Shown piece after piece: positions 2,503-11,456 of a stretch of DNA of 33,855 bases. Positions within the stretch are counted from its first letter, which is position 1, and every line of letters starts with the position of its first letter. The position numbers were made by a program, and so were the translations under genes. Origin of the DNA: an uncultured Clostridia bacterium (GTDB lineage: Bacteria > Bacillota > Clostridia > Christensenellales > Aristaeellaceae); NCBI GenBank assembly GCA_947624355.1, contig CANQKI010000015.1, positions 1-33,855 of the forward strand, in the 5' to 3' direction. Under the pieces are notes generated by a model. It was not told the origin of the DNA, made no database searches, and worked only from the letters and a program-made list of their open reading frames with translations.

Positions 2503-2873
2503 TGAACGGCCTGGTCAATTATGAGGAAATGGCGGCCATGATCCTGTTTGGCATCGGGTTCACCACCTTGCTGCTCAACCCCAACCTGGTCAAGAAAATC
2601 ATCGGCTTTTCCATGATGGACAGCGCCGTTTACCTGTTCCTGGCCGCCAAGGGGTACATCACCGGCCGGGTGGCCCCCATTGTGGTGGACAGCATTCAGG
2701 AAATGGAGCATTACATCAACCCCATTCCCGCCGGGCTGGTGCTGACGGGTATTGTGGTGTCCGTGTCGGTAACGGCGCTGATGCTGGCCCTGACCGTGCG
2801 GCTCTACCGCCGCTACCACACCCTGAACATCGATGAAATCACCAGGATGAGCAAAAAGGAGGCGGAGCATTGA
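2502..2873 (+). CDS. mnhC: MnhC/MbhG-like (NuoK-type) antiporter subunit
   Basis: 123-residue homologue of MrpC/NuoK with three membrane helices (about residues 7-24, 28-48 and 75-101). A family-typical stretch NPIPAGLVLTGIVVSVSVTA leads into the third helix. NuoK-family subunits carry membrane-embedded glutamates that belong to the ion path of complex I. The start overlaps the previous stop (TGATG), and the same arrangement is repeated at its own end with the next gene, so the three genes are probably translationally coupled. Confidence 0.87.
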   Translation: MNGLVNYEEMAAMILFGIGFTTLLLNPNLVKKIIGFSMMDSAVYLFLAAKGYITGRVAPIVVDSIQEMEHYINPIPAGLVLTGIVVSVSVTALMLALTVRLYRRYHTLNIDEITRMSKKEAEH

Positions 2874-4381
2874 TGACCCACCCCCTTTGGCAGTCCATCC
2901 CCTTTTTCTGTATCCTGCTGCCCCTGGGCTCCGCCGCGGTGACGACGGTGCTGCCCGGCCGCATCGCCAAGTGGTGGGCCGCGATTGCCCTGACCGTCGT
3001 CACCGCCCTGTCCACCGTGCTGATGGTGATTTTCGGCGTCACCGGGGCGGAAAGCTATGCCTATTCCATGGGCCATTATCCCGCCCCCTGGGGCAACGAG
3101 ATCCGTGCCGGGCAATTGGAAGCCATTGCCGCCCACTTTTTCAGCCTGATCATGCTTCTGTCCCTGCTGGGGGGCATGCGGAAAATCGATGAGCATGTGA
3201 CAAAGAGCAAGCACGGGCTGTATTACGCCGTGCTGCTGCTGCTGACCGCCGCCCTCATGGCCCAGATTTACACCAACGATATTTTCACGGCCTACGTGTT
3301 CCTGGAAATCATGACCATTTCGGGCTGCGCCCTGATTTCGGCAAGGAACCGGGGCCTGAACATCGTGGCCGCCACCCGGTATATGATTATGAACCTGCTG
3401 GGCTCGGGCCTGTTTCTGCTGGGCATTATCCTGCTTTATGACCTGACGGGCCACCTGCTCATGCCCAACATCCAGGAGGCCGTCCGCGCCCTCCACGCGT
3501 CGGGGGAATATGCCCTGCCCCTCAACGTGGTGGTGGCGCTGATTTCCGTGGGGCTGTGCGTCAAATCGGCCCTGTTTCCCTTCCACACCTGGGTGCCGGA
3601 CGCTTACGGCTATTCCACCCCCACTTCCTCCGCCGTGCTGTCCTCCCTGGTGAGCAAGGGCTACATTTTCCTGCTCATCAAAATCATTTACCGGGTCATC
3701 GGCATGGACGTCATGGCGGACACGCATATTTTCAACGTATTGTTCGTGTTCGCCCTGGTGGGCATGGTGATGGGCTCCCTTTCGGCCATCCGGCAGAGCG
3801 ATATCCGCCGGATGATCGCCTTTTCCTCTGTGGCGCAGATCGGCTATATTTACGCGGGCATCGGCCTGGGAACGGACGCCGGGATGATGGCCGCCGTGTT
3901 CCACATGCTGTCCCACGCGGTGTGCAAGTCCATGCTGTTTCTGGCGGCGGGCGGCCTGGCGGACGCTTCGGGCAATTCCAAGCAGTTCCGGGACCTGCGG
4001 GGCTCCGGCTTCCGCAGCCCCATTGCCGGGGTCGCCTTCACGGTGGGGGCCCTCTCCATGGTGGGCTTTCCCTTCCTGGGCGGCTTTTCCAGCAAGGTGA
4101 ACCTGGCCATGGCCGCGGCCGGGCACGGGGGCATGCGGGCCCTGCTGGTGCTGGTTTTCCTGGCGGTGTCCACCGCCCTCAACACCCTGTATTTCCTGCG
4201 CACCGTAATCACGCTGTACCGCAAGCCCGCGGAGGGCGCCCAATATTCCCCGGAGCGGGGCCGGCGCGGCTTTTGCTTCAACGGGGCGCTGGTGCTGTTT
4301 ATCTGCGTCAACATCGGCCTGGGGCTGTTCGCCCCCTCTATTGCCGACGCCATTCTGACGGGCCTTGCCCAATTTGCATAG
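2873..4381 (+). CDS. mnhD: MnhD/MbhH-like proton antiporter subunit (first of four)
   Basis: 502-residue polytopic protein of the complex I antiporter family (NuoM/NuoN/MrpD), about 14 helices. The residues that define the proton channel are visible: Glu145 in the fifth-helix motif FLEIMTISG, Lys231 in LCVKSALFPFHTWVPDAY, and Lys262 in SLVSKGY. MrpD-type subunits move protons across the cytoplasmic membrane. ATG 2873 overlaps the previous stop (TGATG); a TTG one codon earlier is possible but less likely. It directly follows mnhC, the position MrpD/MbhH holds in known operons, so it is the best candidate for the true orthologue among the four antiporter subunits here. Confidence 0.88.
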   Translation: MTHPLWQSIPFFCILLPLGSAAVTTVLPGRIAKWWAAIALTVVTALSTVLMVIFGVTGAESYAYSMGHYPAPWGNEIRAGQLEAIAAHFFSLIMLLSLLGGMRKIDEHVTKSKHGLYYAVLLLLTAALMAQIYTNDIFTAYVFLEIMTISGCALISARNRGLNIVAATRYMIMNLLGSGLFLLGIILLYDLTGHLLMPNIQEAVRALHASGEYALPLNVVVALISVGLCVKSALFPFHTWVPDAYGYSTPTSSAVLSSLVSKGYIFLLIKIIYRVIGMDVMADTHIFNVLFVFALVGMVMGSLSAIRQSDIRRMIAFSSVAQIGYIYAGIGLGTDAGMMAAVFHMLSHAVCKSMLFLAAGGLADASGNSKQFRDLRGSGFRSPIAGVAFTVGALSMVGFPFLGGFSSKVNLAMAAAGHGGMRALLVLVFLAVSTALNTLYFLRTVITLYRKPAEGAQYSPERGRRGFCFNGALVLFICVNIGLGLFAPSIADAILTGLAQFA

Positions 4382-4397
4382 GAGGAAGGTTTCTGCC

Positions 4398-5873
4398 ATG
4401 TCCAGCTTTGCGCTGCTTTTGCCCGTGCTGTTTCCCGTGCTGATGGGGCTGCTGATTCTGCTGTTCCCCGATTTTGATTTGCCGCGTCCCCGCCGCTTTG
4501 TGGTCACGATGGCGCTGCTGGTCAACTGGGTGGCGCTGGCGCCCTGCCTGCTGATGGGGGAGGAAACCCAGCCCCTTTTCCTTTTGACCAGCGATCTGCC
4601 CCTCTTTCTCAAAGCCGACGGCACGGCCAAGGTGTTCGCCTGCGTGATGGCCTTCGTGTGGGCCATGGCGGGCATTTATTCCTTTGAATACATGGCCCAC
4701 GAGGGGCACGAGCGGCGGTATTACGGCCTGTATATGATCACCCTGGGGGCGCTGATGGGCCTGTGCTTTTCGGGCAGCATCGTCACCTTCTATATGTTCT
4801 ACGAGCTCATGACCCTGCTCACCATGCCCATGGTGATGCACTCGGGCAAAAAAGACGCCGTGGCCGCCGGCCTCAAGTACCTGATCTATTCCATTCTGGG
4901 CGCATCCCTGGCGCTGCTTTCGGTGTTCCTGCTGAGCCCGTACGGCAACGGCTTTTCCTTTGCGCCGGGGGGCGTACTGGACAGCGCGAAAGTATCGGGC
5001 CACGAGGGCGCGGTGCTGACGGCGGCGTTCCTGATGCTGCTTGGCTTTTCCTGCAAGGGCGGCCTCTTTCCCCTCCACGGCTGGCTGCCCACGGCGCACC
5101 CCGCCGCCCCTGCCCCGGCCAGCGCGGTTTTGTCCGGCGTGATTACCAAAGCCGGCGTGCTGGGCGTGCTCCGGACGCTGTACTTTTACGTGGGGGCGGA
5201 TTTTCTGCGGGGCACCTGGGTGCAGACGGCGTTCATGGCCCTGACGCTCTTTACGGTGTTCATGGGCTCGCTGCTGGCGTTTAAGGAAGGGCTGCTGAAA
5301 AAGCGGCTGGCCTGGTCCTCGGTAAGCCAGGTGAGCTATGTGCTTTTCGGCTTGTCCACGTTGCACCCCCTGGGTTTTGCGGGGGCGCTGCTCCATGTGA
5401 TTGCCCACTCCCTCATCAAGGACACCCTCTTCATGGGGGCCGGGGCCGTGATCCTGAAAACAGGCAAAACGAAGGTGAAGGACCTGGCGGGCATCGGCAA
5501 GCGCATGCCCAAAACCATGGCCTGCTTCACCCTGGCCAGCCTGGGCCTCATCGGCATTCCCCCCTGCCTGGGTTTCGTGAGCAAGTGGTACCTGGCCCAA
5601 GGCTCCATGGCCATGGCCGGCGTGCCGGGGTGCTTCAATCTCCTGGGCCCGACGGTGCTGCTGCTCTCCGCCCTGCTGACGGCGGGGTACCTGATGCCCA
5701 TCATCATCCGGGGCTTTTTCCCGGGGGAGGACGCGCCGGCCCTCAAAAAATGCGAGCCGGGCATGGGCATGGTGATTCCCATGATGATTCTGTCCGTCCT
5801 GATGCTGATCCTGGGCGCGTTCCCGGGCGGGCTGATCGACCTGTTTTCCGCCCTGGCCGGAACGGTCCTGTAA
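4398..5873 (+). CDS. Complex I-type proton antiporter subunit (second of four)
   Basis: 491-residue polytopic membrane protein of the NuoM/MrpD family. The proton-channel residues are complete: Glu136 in FYELMTLLTMP, Lys220 in FSCKGGLFPLHGWLPTAH, and Lys251 in GVITKAGV. The ATG at 4398 has GGAGG at 4381-4385, 12 bases upstream, overlapping the end of the previous gene. Its active-site segment (AHPAAPAPASAVLSG) resembles that of the fourth subunit more than that of the first, suggesting a duplication within this class rather than of its direct neighbour. Expected role: an additional proton- or cation-translocating half-channel in the same complex. Confidence 0.85.
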   Translation: MSSFALLLPVLFPVLMGLLILLFPDFDLPRPRRFVVTMALLVNWVALAPCLLMGEETQPLFLLTSDLPLFLKADGTAKVFACVMAFVWAMAGIYSFEYMAHEGHERRYYGLYMITLGALMGLCFSGSIVTFYMFYELMTLLTMPMVMHSGKKDAVAAGLKYLIYSILGASLALLSVFLLSPYGNGFSFAPGGVLDSAKVSGHEGAVLTAAFLMLLGFSCKGGLFPLHGWLPTAHPAAPAPASAVLSGVITKAGVLGVLRTLYFYVGADFLRGTWVQTAFMALTLFTVFMGSLLAFKEGLLKKRLAWSSVSQVSYVLFGLSTLHPLGFAGALLHVIAHSLIKDTLFMGAGAVILKTGKTKVKDLAGIGKRMPKTMACFTLASLGLIGIPPCLGFVSKWYLAQGSMAMAGVPGCFNLLGPTVLLLSALLTAGYLMPIIIRGFFPGEDAPALKKCEPGMGMVIPMMILSVLMLILGAFPGGLIDLFSALAGTVL

Positions 5874-5885
5874 GGAGGCGGCGCG

Positions 5886-7349
5886 ATGCTCATGTACGTC
5901 ACATTGCTCCTGCCCCTGCTGGCCGGGGCGCTGCTGCCCCTCTTCCGCTTCAAAAGCGGCAGGGCGCGGACCGTTTATGTGGAGGCCGCCGTGCTGGCAA
6001 CCAGCGCGCTGGTCTGGTTCCTGATTCTGCGAAACGGCGGGGAACGCATGTCCCTGTGCCGCCTGGCGGGCAACCAGGAATTGGTGTTCCGCCTGGACGG
6101 CATGGGAAAGGTGTTCGCCGGGCTCATTGCCGTATTGTGGCCCATTGCGTCCCTGTACGCCTTTTCCTATATGGAGCACGAGGAGCGGCCCAACACCTTT
6201 TTCTGCTTCTACACCATGAGCTATGCCGTTTCCCTGGCCGTGGCCATGGCGGGCAGCCTGTTCACGCTGTATATCTTCTTTGAGGGGCTCACGCTGGTGA
6301 CGCTGCCTTTGGTTGTGCACAAGCAGGACGCGAAATCCGTCCGGGCCGGGCGCATGTACCTGAACTTTTCCATTTCGGGGGCGGCCCTGGCCTTTATCGC
6401 CCTCATCTGCGTGATGCATTTCGGCTCCACCACGGATTTCATCCTGGGGGGCGTGCTGGACGCGGAAAAAACCGCGGGGTATGAAACGGCCATGCAGTGG
6501 ATTTTCCTGCTGGCCTTTGTGGGCTTTGGCGTCAAGGCCGCCATCTTCCCCCTGTCCCAGTGGCTGCCCATGGCGTCCGTGGCCCCGACCCCCGTCACCG
6601 CCTTGCTGCACGCCGTGGCCGTGGTGAACACGGGGGCCTTCGCCGTGCTGCGGCTCACCTATTATTCCTTCGGCACGGAGCTGCTTTACGGTTCCGCCGC
6701 CCAGGCCTGCGCCCTGCTTCTTACCTGCGTCACCATTCTGTACGGCTCCATTATGGCCGTGCGGGAGCGGCATTTCAAGCGCCGCCTGGCCTATTCCACC
6801 GTATCCAACCTGTCGTACATGCTGCTGGGGGCCGCGCTGATGACCCCGGCGGGCATGACGGGCAGCCTGAGCCACCTGGTCATGCACGGCATCATCAAGA
6901 TCACGCTGTTCTTCTGCGCCGGAGCGTTCCTGGTGCAGACCGGGGCGGAATACGTGCCCGACGTGCGGGGATACGCCCGGATCATGCCCGGCACCTGCGC
7001 CGCCTTCCTGGTGGGCGCGGCAGCCCTGACGGGGATTCCGCCCCTGTGCGGGTTCGTGAGCAAGTGGAACCTGCTCACCGCCTCCGCCGGGGAGCCCCTG
7101 GGCCCCGTCGCCATGGGCACGCTGATCGTGTCCGCCGTGCTGACGGCCGTTTACCTGTTTTCCTCCGCCATGCCCATGTATTTCCGCCCCCTGAATGCCG
7201 ACCAGGCGGCCCTTTCCGGGCAGAAACGGGACCCGGACTGGCGGATGCTGGTGCCCTTCCTGCTGCTGTGTCTTCTCATGCTGGGCCTCGGCCTGTTCTC
7301 CGGGCCCCTGACCGATTATTTCCGCCAGGTTTCGGCGGGCCTTGTGTAA
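5886..7349 (+). CDS. Complex I-type antiporter subunit with altered lysine (third of four)
   Basis: 487-residue polytopic member of the same family, preceded by AAGGAGG just after the previous stop. Glu133 (FFEGLTLVTLP) and Lys217 (GVKAAIFPLSQWLP) are conserved. At the position where the other three have a second lysine followed by glycine, this one has Asn248 (AVVNTGAF), with His242 six residues earlier (LLHAVAV). NuoL/MrpA-class subunits also lack the lysine and carry this histidine (family knowledge), so this subunit may be NuoL/MrpA-like in its core, although it lacks the long C-terminal extension. It overlaps no neighbour: the next ATG is 13 bases after its stop. Confidence 0.83.
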   Translation: MLMYVTLLLPLLAGALLPLFRFKSGRARTVYVEAAVLATSALVWFLILRNGGERMSLCRLAGNQELVFRLDGMGKVFAGLIAVLWPIASLYAFSYMEHEERPNTFFCFYTMSYAVSLAVAMAGSLFTLYIFFEGLTLVTLPLVVHKQDAKSVRAGRMYLNFSISGAALAFIALICVMHFGSTTDFILGGVLDAEKTAGYETAMQWIFLLAFVGFGVKAAIFPLSQWLPMASVAPTPVTALLHAVAVVNTGAFAVLRLTYYSFGTELLYGSAAQACALLLTCVTILYGSIMAVRERHFKRRLAYSTVSNLSYMLLGAALMTPAGMTGSLSHLVMHGIIKITLFFCAGAFLVQTGAEYVPDVRGYARIMPGTCAAFLVGAAALTGIPPLCGFVSKWNLLTASAGEPLGPVAMGTLIVSAVLTAVYLFSSAMPMYFRPLNADQAALSGQKRDPDWRMLVPFLLLCLLMLGLGLFSGPLTDYFRQVSAGLV

Positions 7350-7362
7350 GGAGGGAGGCGCG

Positions 7363-9492
7363 ATGATGCATTTCCTGCTTCCCATTGCCTGTTTCCTGCC
7401 CATGGCGGCAGGGACCGCCTGCTTCTTTGCGGGCAAAAAATCCCTCTGTGCCCTGCACGGCCTGCAGATCGGCGGGTGCGCAGTTACGTTCTGCCTGTGC
7501 CTCATGCTGTTCATCACGGGGGACGCGGCGCTGACCATTCCCGGCGTCTGCGGCCTTTCCCTGAATTTTAAGTGCGACGGGTTCCGGGGGCTGTACGCCC
7601 TGGTGGCCGCCTTCATGTGGCTGATGACGGCGCTGTTTGCGCCCCGGTACTTTGCCCACCATGACAATTTGCCCCGTTACGCCCTCATGAACCTGCTCAC
7701 TTGCGGGGCCACTCTGGGCCTCTTCCTTTCGGACGATCTGTATACCGCCTTCATCTTCTTTGAAATCATGTCCTTCGCCAGCTTCTGCCTGGTGATTCAG
7801 GAGGAAACCCCCGGCGCCATCCGGGCGGCCAATCTGTACCTGACCGTGGCGGTGATCGGCGGGCTGACAGCGCTGATGGGCCTTTTCATCCTGTGGCACG
7901 AAACGGGCACACTGTTTTACGACGGTATCCGCGACGCCCTGGGGTCCGCCCCGGTCAGCGGAAGAATCACCTGGGCCGCCTGGCTCGTTACCATCGGTTT
8001 CGGGGCCAAGGCGGGCCTCTTCCCTCTCCATGTGTGGCTGCCCAAGGCGCACCCTGTGGCCCCGGCCCCGGCCTCTGCCCTCCTGTCCGGCATATTGACC
8101 AAAGCGGGGGTGTTCGGCCTCATCGTGGTTTGTTCCCGCATCCTGCCGGGGAATGCCGTATACGGCAACGCCCTGCTGGCGCTGGCCGTGATTACCATGC
8201 TGCTGGGGGCGGTGCTGGCCCTGTTCTCCACCGATTTGAAGCGCACCCTGGCCTGCTCCTCCATGAGCCAGATCGGGTTCATTTCCGTGGGCCTTGCCAT
8301 GATGGTGCTGTCCGGGGAAGAGGGCACCCTGGCCGCTTACGGGGCCGTCAGCCACATGGTGAACCATTCCCTCATCAAGCTGACGCTGTTCCTGGCGGCG
8401 GGGGCGGTGTACATGAACGCCCACACCCTGGATTTAAACGAGCTCCGGGGCTTCGGCCGGAAAAAGCCGCTGCTTCATTTCTGCTTCCTGGCGGGGGCCC
8501 TGGCCATCGGCGGCGTGCCCTTCCTGGGCAGCGGGTATCACAGCAAGAGCCTGCTCCATGAAAGCATTCTGGAATTCATCAGCATGCAAAAGGAAGCCGG
8601 CGCGCCCTGGATGCCCTACAAGTGCGCCGAAATCCTGTTTCTCCTTTCGGGGGGCTTCACCGTGGCCTACATGACCAAGCTGTACATCTGCCTCTTCTGG
8701 CAGAAGCACCCCACCCGGCAGCAGGAATACGACCGGATGACAAACTACCTGACACCCGCCTCCGCCGCTGCCCTGGTTTGCAGCGCCGTGACCCTGCCCA
8801 TTCTTTCCTTCTTCCCGGGCTTTACCCTGCGGCCCCTCATGGACGGTAGCGCTGCCTTTTTCGGTCAGCCCGTCCTTTCCCACGCCATCCACTGGTTCTC
8901 GGGGGAAAACCTGCTGGGCGCGGCGGAAAGCCTGCTGATCGGCGCGGCCCTGTACCTGCTGGTGGTGCGGAAATTGCTCATGAAAAAAGAGGCCGCCGGG
9001 GACATTTACCTGAACCGCTGGCCCGCAAAGCTGGACCTGGCGGAGGGCCTGTACCGGCCCCTGGTGATGGAATGGCTGCCCAATCTGACGGCGGCGGTCA
9101 CGGGCTTTGTCGCCAACCTGCCCGAGTGCGGCTTTACGAAACACGGCCTGACGGGCGTCTGTGTGGGAATTGTGCGGTTCCTGGCGGAACTGCCCGAGCG
9201 CTTTGTGCTCTTCCTGCGCTATACCCTGTTCCGCCCCCGCCGCGCCGCCCGGCCCGTGCCGGTTGGCAACCGGCTCACCTGGTATCTGGGCCGCTTCCTG
9301 GATGGCTGCGCCCGGCTGCTCAATAAAACGCTGCTGCGCCGCCGCCCCCTGCGCACGGATTTTGAATACGTTCTGGCCGCCTCCTGGCGCGGGCTCAAGG
9401 ACAGCATGTCCAGCCTGACCGTCAGCGTGTCCTTCGGCCTGCTGCTTCTGTGCGTGGGCCTGTATATCACCTGCGCGTATCTGCTTTGGTAA
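7363..9492 (+). CDS. Large antiporter subunit with NuoL-like C-terminal extension (fourth of four)
   Basis: 709-residue polytopic protein, last gene of the pump operon. The core has Glu134 (FFEIMSFASF), Lys216 (FGAKAGLFPLHVWLPKAHP) and Lys247 (ILTKAGVFG). About 200 residues follow the usual end of the core: a helix near LLGAAESLLIGAALYLL, a long amphipathic stretch, and a terminal helix ending in ITCAYLLW. This resembles the lateral-helix extension of NuoL, which ties antiporter subunits together (analogy). ATG 7363 follows GGAGG closely; a second ATG is the next codon. The last 45 bases, including the stop, are repeated exactly at 10449-10493 after the channel gene. Confidence 0.83.
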   Translation: MMHFLLPIACFLPMAAGTACFFAGKKSLCALHGLQIGGCAVTFCLCLMLFITGDAALTIPGVCGLSLNFKCDGFRGLYALVAAFMWLMTALFAPRYFAHHDNLPRYALMNLLTCGATLGLFLSDDLYTAFIFFEIMSFASFCLVIQEETPGAIRAANLYLTVAVIGGLTALMGLFILWHETGTLFYDGIRDALGSAPVSGRITWAAWLVTIGFGAKAGLFPLHVWLPKAHPVAPAPASALLSGILTKAGVFGLIVVCSRILPGNAVYGNALLALAVITMLLGAVLALFSTDLKRTLACSSMSQIGFISVGLAMMVLSGEEGTLAAYGAVSHMVNHSLIKLTLFLAAGAVYMNAHTLDLNELRGFGRKKPLLHFCFLAGALAIGGVPFLGSGYHSKSLLHESILEFISMQKEAGAPWMPYKCAEILFLLSGGFTVAYMTKLYICLFWQKHPTRQQEYDRMTNYLTPASAAALVCSAVTLPILSFFPGFTLRPLMDGSAAFFGQPVLSHAIHWFSGENLLGAAESLLIGAALYLLVVRKLLMKKEAAGDIYLNRWPAKLDLAEGLYRPLVMEWLPNLTAAVTGFVANLPECGFTKHGLTGVCVGIVRFLAELPERFVLFLRYTLFRPRRAARPVPVGNRLTWYLGRFLDGCARLLNKTLLRRRPLRTDFEYVLAASWRGLKDSMSSLTVSVSFGLLLLCVGLYITCAYLLW
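9448..9492 (+). repeat. 45-base direct repeat, copy 1 (3' end of the last pump gene)
   Basis: These 45 bases encode the final 14 residues and stop codon of the fourth antiporter subunit. An identical copy stands at 10449-10493, on the other side of the ion-channel gene. The similarity extends a few bases further upstream (TGCTTC) with one base inserted in the second copy. Confidence 0.95.
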
Positions 9493-9575
9493 GAATTACC
9501 GGGCCCTTGTTTAATTTTCGCACTTATATTGTGCTGATTCCGCTGCACAGCGCCTGAACATAAGGAGTGTTTGAC

Positions 9576-10385
9576 ATGTCGGTCAAAAGCCGGACTTTTG
9601 AGATTATCAGCCGGGGAAGCGACGGCGACCGGGCAAGCAAACTTTTCGATGGGGTTATTATGGCCCTGATCGCCGTAAGCATTGTTTCCATCATTCTTGA
9701 GTCTTTCGATGGATTTGCCGCGCAGTATTACGGAATCCTGCATGGGCTGGAAGTATTGTGCGTAATCGTTTTTTCCATCGAATATGCATTACGAATCTGG
9801 ACGGCGGATTTGCTGTATCCGGAAAGCAAACATCCCCGCCTGAAATACGTCTTTTCCTTTCTGGCAATTGTTGATTTGCTGGCCATTCTTCCGTTTTACC
9901 TTCCCTTTGTATCTGCCGATCTCCGGTTTCTGCGCATGATGCGGCTTTTCCGGCTCGTCCGCCTTTTCCGCATCTTTAAACTGGGCCGGTATCTCGACGC
10001 GCTGAATATCATTGCCGACGTTATCAAAGGCACCCTGTCCCAATTGGTCATCTCCGTCATAATTTGCTTTTTTGTCATGCTGTTTTCATCAATTGTTATG
10101 TACACGGTGGAAAATCCAGTGCAGCCCGAACAATTTCCCAACGTGATTGCTTCGCTCTGGTGGGCCATCTGCACATTAACAACCGTAGGCTATGGGGATG
10201 TTTACCCCATCACCGCCGTCGGCCGCGTATTCGCCGCCATTATCAGCGTTGTAGGGATCGGAATCATTGCCATTCCCACCGGCATCATCGCCGCAGGGTT
10301 TACTTCAGCCATCAATCGCAACAGCCAGGCCAAGGACGACCCGAAGAAATTTTGCCCTTACTGCGGTCATAAATTGGATGACTGA
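9576..10385 (+). CDS. Voltage-gated potassium channel (6TM VIC family)
   Basis: 269-residue cytoplasmic-membrane channel. Four voltage-sensor helices occupy about residues 20-140, the fourth being arginine-rich (RLFRLVRLFRIFK). A pore helix and the K+ selectivity filter TTVGYGDVYP lie near residues 203-212, followed by a final glycine-rich helix. The C-terminus ends in a single Cys-X2-Cys knuckle (KFCPYCGHKLDD), half of a zinc ribbon. ATG 9576 is set by AAGGAG at 9562-9567. The gene is clearly more A+T-rich than its neighbours and is flanked by direct repeats of the upstream gene's end, so it was probably inserted. I find no convincing promoter of its own, so it is likely read from the pump operon. 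Its role may be K+ flux linked to membrane potential (inference). Confidence 0.9.
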   Translation: MSVKSRTFEIISRGSDGDRASKLFDGVIMALIAVSIVSIILESFDGFAAQYYGILHGLEVLCVIVFSIEYALRIWTADLLYPESKHPRLKYVFSFLAIVDLLAILPFYLPFVSADLRFLRMMRLFRLVRLFRIFKLGRYLDALNIIADVIKGTLSQLVISVIICFFVMLFSSIVMYTVENPVQPEQFPNVIASLWWAICTLTTVGYGDVYPITAVGRVFAAIISVVGIGIIAIPTGIIAAGFTSAINRNSQAKDDPKKFCPYCGHKLDD

Positions 10386-10418
10386 CCGCCCTTCTTCTGC
10401 ACTTCTATGTGTTTTCAT

Positions 10419-10436
10419 ATAAGTCGAATGACTTAT
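10419..10436. repeat. Perfect inverted repeat downstream of the channel gene
   Basis: ATAAGTC-GAAT-GACTTAT: two 7-base arms and a 4-base loop, 33 bases after the channel stop. No T-run follows, so it is not a standard terminator. It lies inside the segment bracketed by the 45-base repeats and may be part of what was inserted. Confidence 0.6.
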
Positions 10437-10448
10437 TGGATATGCTTC

Positions 10449-10493
10449 CTGTGCGTGGGCCTGTATATCACCTGCGCGTATCTGCTTTGGTAA
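10449..10493 (+). repeat. 45-base direct repeat, copy 2 (orphan gene end)
   Basis: Exact copy of 9448-9492 but not attached to any coding region. It is followed about 20 bases later by the terminator. This suggests that the terminator originally followed the fourth antiporter gene directly, and that about 1 kb carrying the channel gene was placed between the gene end and its terminator. Confidence 0.95.
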
Positions 10494-10514
10494 TGCCCGG
10501 AATGAATTTCACTG

Positions 10515-10544
10515 AAAAAAGGCTCCCGATTCGGAAGCCTTTTT
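10515..10544. terminator. Bidirectional intrinsic terminator
   Basis: Arms AAAAAGGCT (10516-10524) and AGCCTTTTT (10536-10544) with a short inner CCG/CGG pair. It has a T-run on the plus strand for the pump/channel transcript and a T-run on the minus strand for the sugar-kinase transcript, whose stop codon is 13 bases away. Confidence 0.85.
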
Positions 10545-10556
10545 ATGATGCTGTCT

Positions 10557-11456
10557 TCACAGCCCGGCGGCCATTTTCGCCGCGCCGTAAGCGGCGGAAC
10601 CCCGGGGCGCAATGCACCGCATTTGGGGATACACCGCCCGGCAGCATTGCTCCACCCCCCGGCGGATCGTATCGTGATGAGCCAGGATGCTGCCGGCCAG
10701 CGCCAATTCGCCCTCCTGCAGCCCCAGCCCGGTCCACACGGTAAGGGCCAGCTCGGTGAGGGCGTTGGCCGCTTTCATGGCGATCTGCCGGGCAGCTTCA
10801 TCCTGGGCCGCCACGGCAGACGGCAGCAGGCGGGCCAGGGCGGCCACGTCCTTTTTGCCCGTGTCCGGCGCGTACAGCCAGGAAATGACCGGGCCCACGT
10901 CCCGGACACGCAGGGCGGCAAACACGCTTTCCGTCAGGGCGGTGGCGGGCCCCCGGCCATCTTTGGCCCGGACGACGGCGGCCAGAATATCCCGGCCGAT
11001 GGCGTAGCCGCTGCCTTCGTCGTCGATCAGATAACCAAACCCCCCGGCCCGAAGGACCTTATCCCCGTTTCGGCCGCAGCAGATGGAGCCCGTGCCCGCG
11101 ATGAGCACGGCCCCCGGCCCTTCGATGGCCCCGGCCAGGGCGATTTCCTGATCCCCCGCCAGGCGCAGCGGGCCCTGATAGCCCGCCTGCCGCACGGAGG
11201 CTTCCAGCAGCCGCGCCGCGTCCCCGTTGCTGATTCCTGCCGCGCCGATGACCAGCCCGGCGCAGGCCTCCAGGCCCCCCGGCTGGGCCGCCATAAAGCC
11301 CACCGCGTCTTTGATGGTAGCCTGCACCCGGCCATCCGCCGCGCCGTTTAGGTTCAGGGGGCCGAACACGCCCTTTGCCTTTTCCCGGCCCTGTTCATCC
11401 AGCGCCACAACCTCTGTCTTGGTGCCGCCGCCGTCCCAACCCCAGGTTATGCGCAT
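10557..11456 (-). CDS. BadF/BadG-type amino-sugar kinase, probably MurNAc/GlcNAc kinase (MurK-like)
   Basis: 299-residue ASKHA-fold kinase of the BadF/BadG/BcrA/BcrD family. The N-terminal phosphate loop DGGGTKT (residues 8-14), the second phosphate loop GTGSI (121-125) and the segment GYLIDDEGSG are present. Family members include NagK-type GlcNAc kinases and the clostridial MurK, which phosphorylates both MurNAc and GlcNAc at O6. The context favours that role: the gene overlaps nagZ by 10 bases and sits downstream of murQ, whose substrate is MurNAc-6-phosphate. With no PTS gene nearby, this kinase would supply that substrate from free cytoplasmic sugars. Exact sugar specificity cannot be read from the sequence. 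Confidence 0.85.
   Translation of the reverse strand: MRITWGWDGGGTKTEVVALDEQGREKAKGVFGPLNLNGAADGRVQATIKDAVGFMAAQPGGLEACAGLVIGAAGISNGDAARLLEASVRQAGYQGPLRLAGDQEIALAGAIEGPGAVLIAGTGSICCGRNGDKVLRAGGFGYLIDDEGSGYAIGRDILAAVVRAKDGRGPATALTESVFAALRVRDVGPVISWLYAPDTGKKDVAALARLLPSAVAAQDEAARQIAMKAANALTELALTVWTGLGLQEGELALAGSILAHHDTIRRGVEQCCRAVYPQMRCIAPRGSAAYGAAKMAAGL

Follow-up and report, generated by a model that had tools for sequence, protein, structure and literature searches.

How did a gene for a K+ channel come to lie between the fourth antiporter gene of an operon and the probable terminator of that operon, enclosed on either side by an identical repeat of the antiporter gene's end? The question is raised by a stretch of 33,855 nucleotides of contig CANQKI010000015.1, from an uncultured Clostridia bacterium of the family Aristaeellaceae. 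This whole stretch is called the window here and its coordinates are positions in it, with the features named all on the + strand; G and L labels denote genomes and loci, respectively. On balance, an element with its own integrase, in the likeliest case a temperate phage or a truncated prophage, probably entered at the 3′ end of the antiporter gene, and the inserted segment would be its remnant. The two copies would then be its attachment sites (attL and attR), with the channel gene all that is left between them.

An exact direct repeat of 45 nt occurs at 9448-9492 and 10449-10493 (spacing 1001, with 956 nt enclosed), and among repeats of 20 nt or more in the whole window it is the sole family with identical copies. 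When the flanks of the channel were shuffled, the longest word common to them was 11 nt (20 shuffles). The left copy, the proposed attL core, forms the 3′ end of the open reading frame (ORF) of the fourth antiporter gene (MrpD-like, 716 aa, 7342-9492; PF00361, E 1e-53), stop codon included, and this gene is intact. The right copy, the proposed attR core, now lies outside any gene. If the right copy is granted one extra base, the likeness continues for a further 5 nt (TGCTT) upstream of the repeat. Such a directly repeated gene end, with the gene whole on one side, is expected of an element inserted by an integrase or of the remnant of one.

The segment between the copies (9493-10448) is a compositional island. 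Its G+C content is 48.7% against 61.7% for the window, below that of every one of 658 windows of 956 bases taken in 50-base steps along the contig, and the G+C content at third codon positions is 0.60 in the channel gene and 0.83 in the antiporter gene. No inverted repeats were found at the extreme ends of the insert; a single 8-nt inverted pair (9522-9529/10417-10424), 24-29 nt inside these ends, is likely due to chance, since 18 such short pairs occur over 1121 bases. No transposase was detected and the channel gene is the one long ORF of the insert: the other ORFs of 80 aa or more are short and overlap the channel or the repeats, and only the long one was covered by the profile scan. An earlier note on this sequence had claimed an exact duplication of the last 45 bases of the gene around a segment of about 950 bases, a more A+T-rich K+ channel gene within it, a downstream copy just before the operon terminator and the absence of a transposase, all of which agrees with what was found. 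It had also proposed a look for the same segment elsewhere, and none was seen in this genome: the insert has one match in its own assembly (2.81 Mb, 176 contigs) and a 31-nt core of the repeat has two copies only, both in the window (allowing up to 3 mismatches).

An assembly error at the repeat is unlikely, as judged from the assembled sequence. A chimeric join at the 45-base word is conceivable in a draft of 176 contigs. Yet real sequence leading from the tail of the channel gene into a gene end would still be required, and the right copy leads to a plausible terminator positioned as in two relatives; an artefact is accordingly given very little credence.

The same site was compared across the genus, which comprised 28 other genomes, 26 of them with an antiporter match and 25 examined for a repeated gene end (G001 was left out). 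The nearest antiporter orthologues are those of G007, G006 and G012 (57-60% identity), and no channel match was found in these three genomes at E 1e-10. Directly after the antiporter gene, G006 and G012 carry a strong hairpin with a T-run (z -4.5 and -4.2, respectively), in the same position as the weaker one of the window, while G007 has no terminator hairpin there (z -0.65). Nowhere among the 25 congeners are the last 150 bases of the antiporter gene repeated downstream over more than 11 nt (downstream sequence of 0 to 1494 bases, one locus having none at all). Given that the nearest orthologues lack the channel, that two of the three have a T-run hairpin after the gene and that no congener examined repeats its gene end, the best reading is that the operon once ended with what is now the right copy and its terminator, and that the channel was inserted ahead of them. 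This supports the view of the earlier note that an insertion left the gene end intact. As to the empty site which it had hoped to see in relatives, the channel is absent from the three and the terminator directly follows the gene in two, while at 57-60% protein identity the bases of the junction are too diverged to be compared.

For such an insert, the course of events would be as follows. The 3′ end of the antiporter gene would have been the place at which an integrase-borne element entered by recombination. Since the last 45 bases of the gene would also have been present in the attachment site of the element, the pump gene would have stayed whole and its end would have appeared once more beyond the element, the two copies being attL and attR. 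The integrase and the phage genes would then have been lost in deletions that spared only the K+ channel gene, which in phages often lies between repressor and integrase. The channel would so have ended up between the pump gene and the operon terminator, probably co-transcribed. The event may be recent, as is suggested by the identity of the 45 bases even though one copy is now outside any gene.

The gene that was spared (9576-10385, 269 aa) is predicted to encode a voltage-gated K+ (Kv-type) channel. It matches PF00520 (Ion_trans, E 7e-33), PF07885 and Kv channels in the PDB, the best match among the solved Kv channels being at E 7e-30, and its alignment shows a TTVGYGD filter and an arginine-rich S4, so that the profile, the selectivity filter and the charged S4 of a voltage-gated K+ channel are all present. 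Its best phage family is PHROG 7872 (E 7e-56), the function of which is listed as unknown. No family of the PADLOC anti-phage defence models was matched at E 0.01 by the three channels tested.

Of the 308 genomes of the bacterial family, 32 have this channel at E ≤ 1e-90, the window's own among them. The family includes Aristaeella, and a plasmid of A. lactis (NZ_CP069422.1, 44 kb) has a channel of 72% identity with an integrase 5.8 kb away. In G229 the channel lies inside a truncated prophage. Exact repeats of 49 nt, spaced 11,572 bases apart, bound this element, one copy being the 3′ end of a tRNA-Lys gene. PHROG matches identified in this element a tyrosine integrase, a repressor, a piece of a tail protein, an endolysin, a DNA methyltransferase and a holin; HicA/HicB-like ORFs, named by eye, adjoin the integrase, and no head or terminase gene was identified in the part of its ORFs that was scanned. 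The G229 element resembles the window in its channel family, in having exact repeats at a gene 3′ end (49 nt there) and in being of the tyrosine-integrase type. It differs in its tRNA-Lys site, its 11.6-kb length and its retention of integrase, repressor and lysis genes, and appears to represent the layout of the window at an earlier stage, with more of the phage left. By eye, a short basic ORF with an ALGITxxKRK-like stretch was also noticed before the channel in G229 (L120, 10321-10539, - strand) and in G246 (L061), both of one genus. In G045, a repressor-like gene, the channel and a serine integrase stand in a row beside ORFs that look phage-like by eye; no att repeats longer than 13 nt were found around this integrase in the stretches fetched.

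A similar setting is common in phage contigs. A profile scan of IMG/VR gave 73 channel loci (L158-L230), where single-sequence scans had given one contig only; some of the IMG/VR contigs are possibly misassigned. An integrase lies within 3 kb of the channel at 34 of the 73 loci, in 30 cases downstream on the same strand; clustering these 34 at 70% protein identity leaves 24 groups. At 30 of the 73 a repressor-like gene is found upstream, on the channel's strand and no more than 1.5 kb from it. An integrase occurs somewhere in the fetched stretch at 40 viral loci, and at 33 of these it is no further than 1.5 kb from the channel, which is a stronger sign of the link than the control described below. 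The order repressor, channel, tyrosine integrase is seen in L159, part of a 43-kb phage contig whose channel is 70% identical to that of the window, and the order repressor, channel, serine integrase in L116/L158 (one contig). Dulem virus 33 shows the same succession, an XRE protein being followed by an ion transport protein that is more distant (35%) and, 1.5 kb on, by an integrase. Two Acinetobacter 'phage' matches were set aside: the channel of H3 is surrounded by bacterial genes (tamB, acnB), and H4 is filed under the same name. A further match, H5, carries no annotation. For comparison, 34 loci with an antiporter were taken from a contig scan (best segment identity 40-59%), nine of them, shorter than 9 kb, being dropped; no integrase match was found at the remaining 25, which are not a fair control for phage contigs. 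The earlier note had found the duplication reminiscent of elements that restore a gene end at their attachment site. This comparison has gained weight because relatives of the channel often stand beside integrases in IMG/VR and because a truncated prophage with 49-base att repeats occurs in the family.

The phage loci also lead to a broader and more tentative proposal. Many temperate phages may carry a Kv-type channel in their lysogeny cassette, in the order repressor, channel, integrase, as a positional counterpart of lambda rexAB that probably alters the membrane potential of the lysogen to counter rival phages or stress. The closeness of the gene to the attachment site could cause it to be left behind repeatedly in host genomes, and in the window it would have been captured between att scars as a further gene of an antiporter operon. 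In phage lambda, rexAB lies in the immunity region beside cI, and the channels of the phage loci described here are likewise membrane ion channels, by prediction, beside a lysogeny repressor. They are of the Kv type, which RexB is not known to be. That RexB is a membrane ion channel is stated in a passage of PMC6379469; the role of the phage channels is predicted. Other virus-borne K+ channels have been recorded: Chlorella viruses, which are viruses of algae, carry them, as described in passages of PMC9405923, and a K+ channel (K10716/yugO) of gut phages is listed in a table of sporulation genes, in a passage of PMC10294663 that is silent on its place in the phage genome.

Several observations weigh against a phage origin of the insert, or at least make it less direct. 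The insert has no recognised phage gene, and no integrase match was found anywhere in the window with the tyrosine and serine models built for this analysis; it can therefore be at most a remnant of an integrase-inserted element. The window locus does not have the repressor-channel-integrase layout, which is that of many IMG/VR loci and not of all: an antiporter gene lies upstream and a terminator downstream. The phage layouts seen have the integrase between the channel and the attachment site, so the path to the present state would require two deletions or more, unless the layout had been a different one. At 39 of the 73 IMG/VR loci there is no integrase within 3 kb, and the 45-base core was found in no IMG/VR contig (searched both as an exact 26-mer and as a degenerate coding pattern), an absence which proves little. 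Within the family, an integrase lies within 1.5 kb of the channel at only three of 31 other loci (G229, G246 and G045), and anywhere in the fetched stretch at five, several of the fetched stretches being cut short where contigs end. Moreover, the channel has been gained alone in this family, without att sites, as is seen from G247 and the empty site of G228 (L252), another species of the same genus: an approximately 820-base channel segment (L127, 8416-9234) replaces 36 bases between flanks that are 97% identical, with no long repeat. The channel ORF of this segment has 42% G+C and its flanks 67% and 62%.

The G247 segment, a channel alone at a site in the chromosome for which G228 has the empty form, is a precedent for a different history, in which a fragment with the channel gene was pasted in during staggered-break repair or template switching and fill-in of the overhangs duplicated the 45 bases, an integrase never being involved. 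The lack of an integrase match in the window fits this as well. Against it, the stop codon is precisely where the duplication stops; integrase sites often coincide with gene 3′ ends in this way, whereas under break repair it would be a coincidence, and the 5 nt of additional upstream likeness with one added base hint at two site copies that evolved separately. Break repair is therefore considered rather unlikely, although it deserves more consideration than the alternatives that follow.

A second alternative is that the channel is an inherited gene of the genus that was moved within the genome by homologous or illegitimate recombination. Seven of the 28 congeners have a channel, 67-70% identical and in all cases outside the antiporter operon (the match in G023, which would be an eighth, reaches only 28% identity), and a single clade of these seven with the channel of the window was not rejected by the approximately unbiased (AU) test (p 0.33). 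The channel tree thus leaves horizontal gain unproved. In two trees, though, the seven congener channels form a supported clade without that of the window (100/99 and 98/95), and they stand in other contexts, where up to 700 bases on each side gave no flanking repeat longer than 11 nt; this speaks against an inherited gene, and it also counts against the attachment-site reading. The nearest rows to the window channel by path vary with the rows included: phage L158, prophage L120 and phage L159 in one tree, G057 and the A. lactis plasmid in the other. A further point against an inherited gene is that the species grouped with that of the window in the RpoB tree, weakly (83/70), namely G005, G006, G007 and G012, have no channel match, nor have G001, G002 and G004, the nearest by path. 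An inherited and relocated gene is considered improbable.

One gene between identical 45-nt repeats could also be a mini-cassette that is still mobile, consisting of the channel and two attachment sites and moved in trans by the integrase of another element. This genome, however, holds one copy only, and a survey of 30 other channel loci (G151 and G283 left out, some flanks being short) gave no flanking repeats of 18 nt or more and no similar structure; there is only a very slim chance that such a cassette is involved. In the same survey an exact 17-nt pair was seen tightly around the channel ORF of L070 (G063), which could be a promoter present twice or the scar of another insertion.

The remnant of an integrase-borne element remains the preferred reading, and its surroundings indicate how the channel may be expressed. 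Upstream in the same operon are three genes for antiporter-like membrane subunits (2870-4381, 4365-5873 and 5886-7349; PF00361 each, E 2e-55 to 8e-51). The channel lies on the same strand, between the pump gene and the operon terminator, and has its own probable ribosome-binding site (AAGGAG, 9562-9567, with the ATG 8 nt on). A crude scan of the + strand gap between the antiporter and channel genes gave no promoter-like or terminator-like match; it also missed the probable operon terminator at 10516-10544, a hairpin with a T-run that begins 22 nt past the stop codon of the right copy. The inverted repeat of this hairpin is 93% complementary, while its fold energy is unexceptional (z -1.3; 22 of 200 shuffles as good). 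The channel is probably co-transcribed with the pump operon, through to the old terminator. A perfect 7-bp stem with a 4-nt loop (10419-10436) lies a short way upstream of the right copy, and the fold of 10386-10460 to which it belongs is stable (z -3.7; 0 of 200 shuffles equally so). No RNA family was matched in 9000-11000 and no tRNA in the window.

Remnants of mobile elements flanked by att sites are already known. Cis-mobilizable elements (CIMEs) are left by decayed integrative elements and, like the insert, consist of cargo between att sites at the 3′ end of a gene, with no genes for recombination; they differ in that no integrative relative on the present site was found here. The E. coli elements e14 and DLP12 are defective prophages with many phage genes, unlike the insert, which keeps one. 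The resemblance lies in the target: as described in a passage of PMC6379469, DLP12 (47 bp of argU) and e14 (at icd) duplicate gene 3′ ends, and in these as in the window the gene end is repeated on both sides, the target gene is whole and the length is similar (47 bp for DLP12). Among the papers listed in literature searches, none was seen on a remnant with a single K+ channel gene in an antiporter operon, nor on a frequent repressor-channel-integrase order in phage contigs.

If the reading is right, a single sequence would show a passenger gene of a phage joining an operon of the host that stays unbroken, at a stage when the two att scars have not yet diverged. The wider pattern in phage contigs, of K+ channels beside a repressor and an integrase, suggests a testable function for PHROG 7872 and points to where the K+ channel genes with their patchy distribution in this bacterial family may come from.

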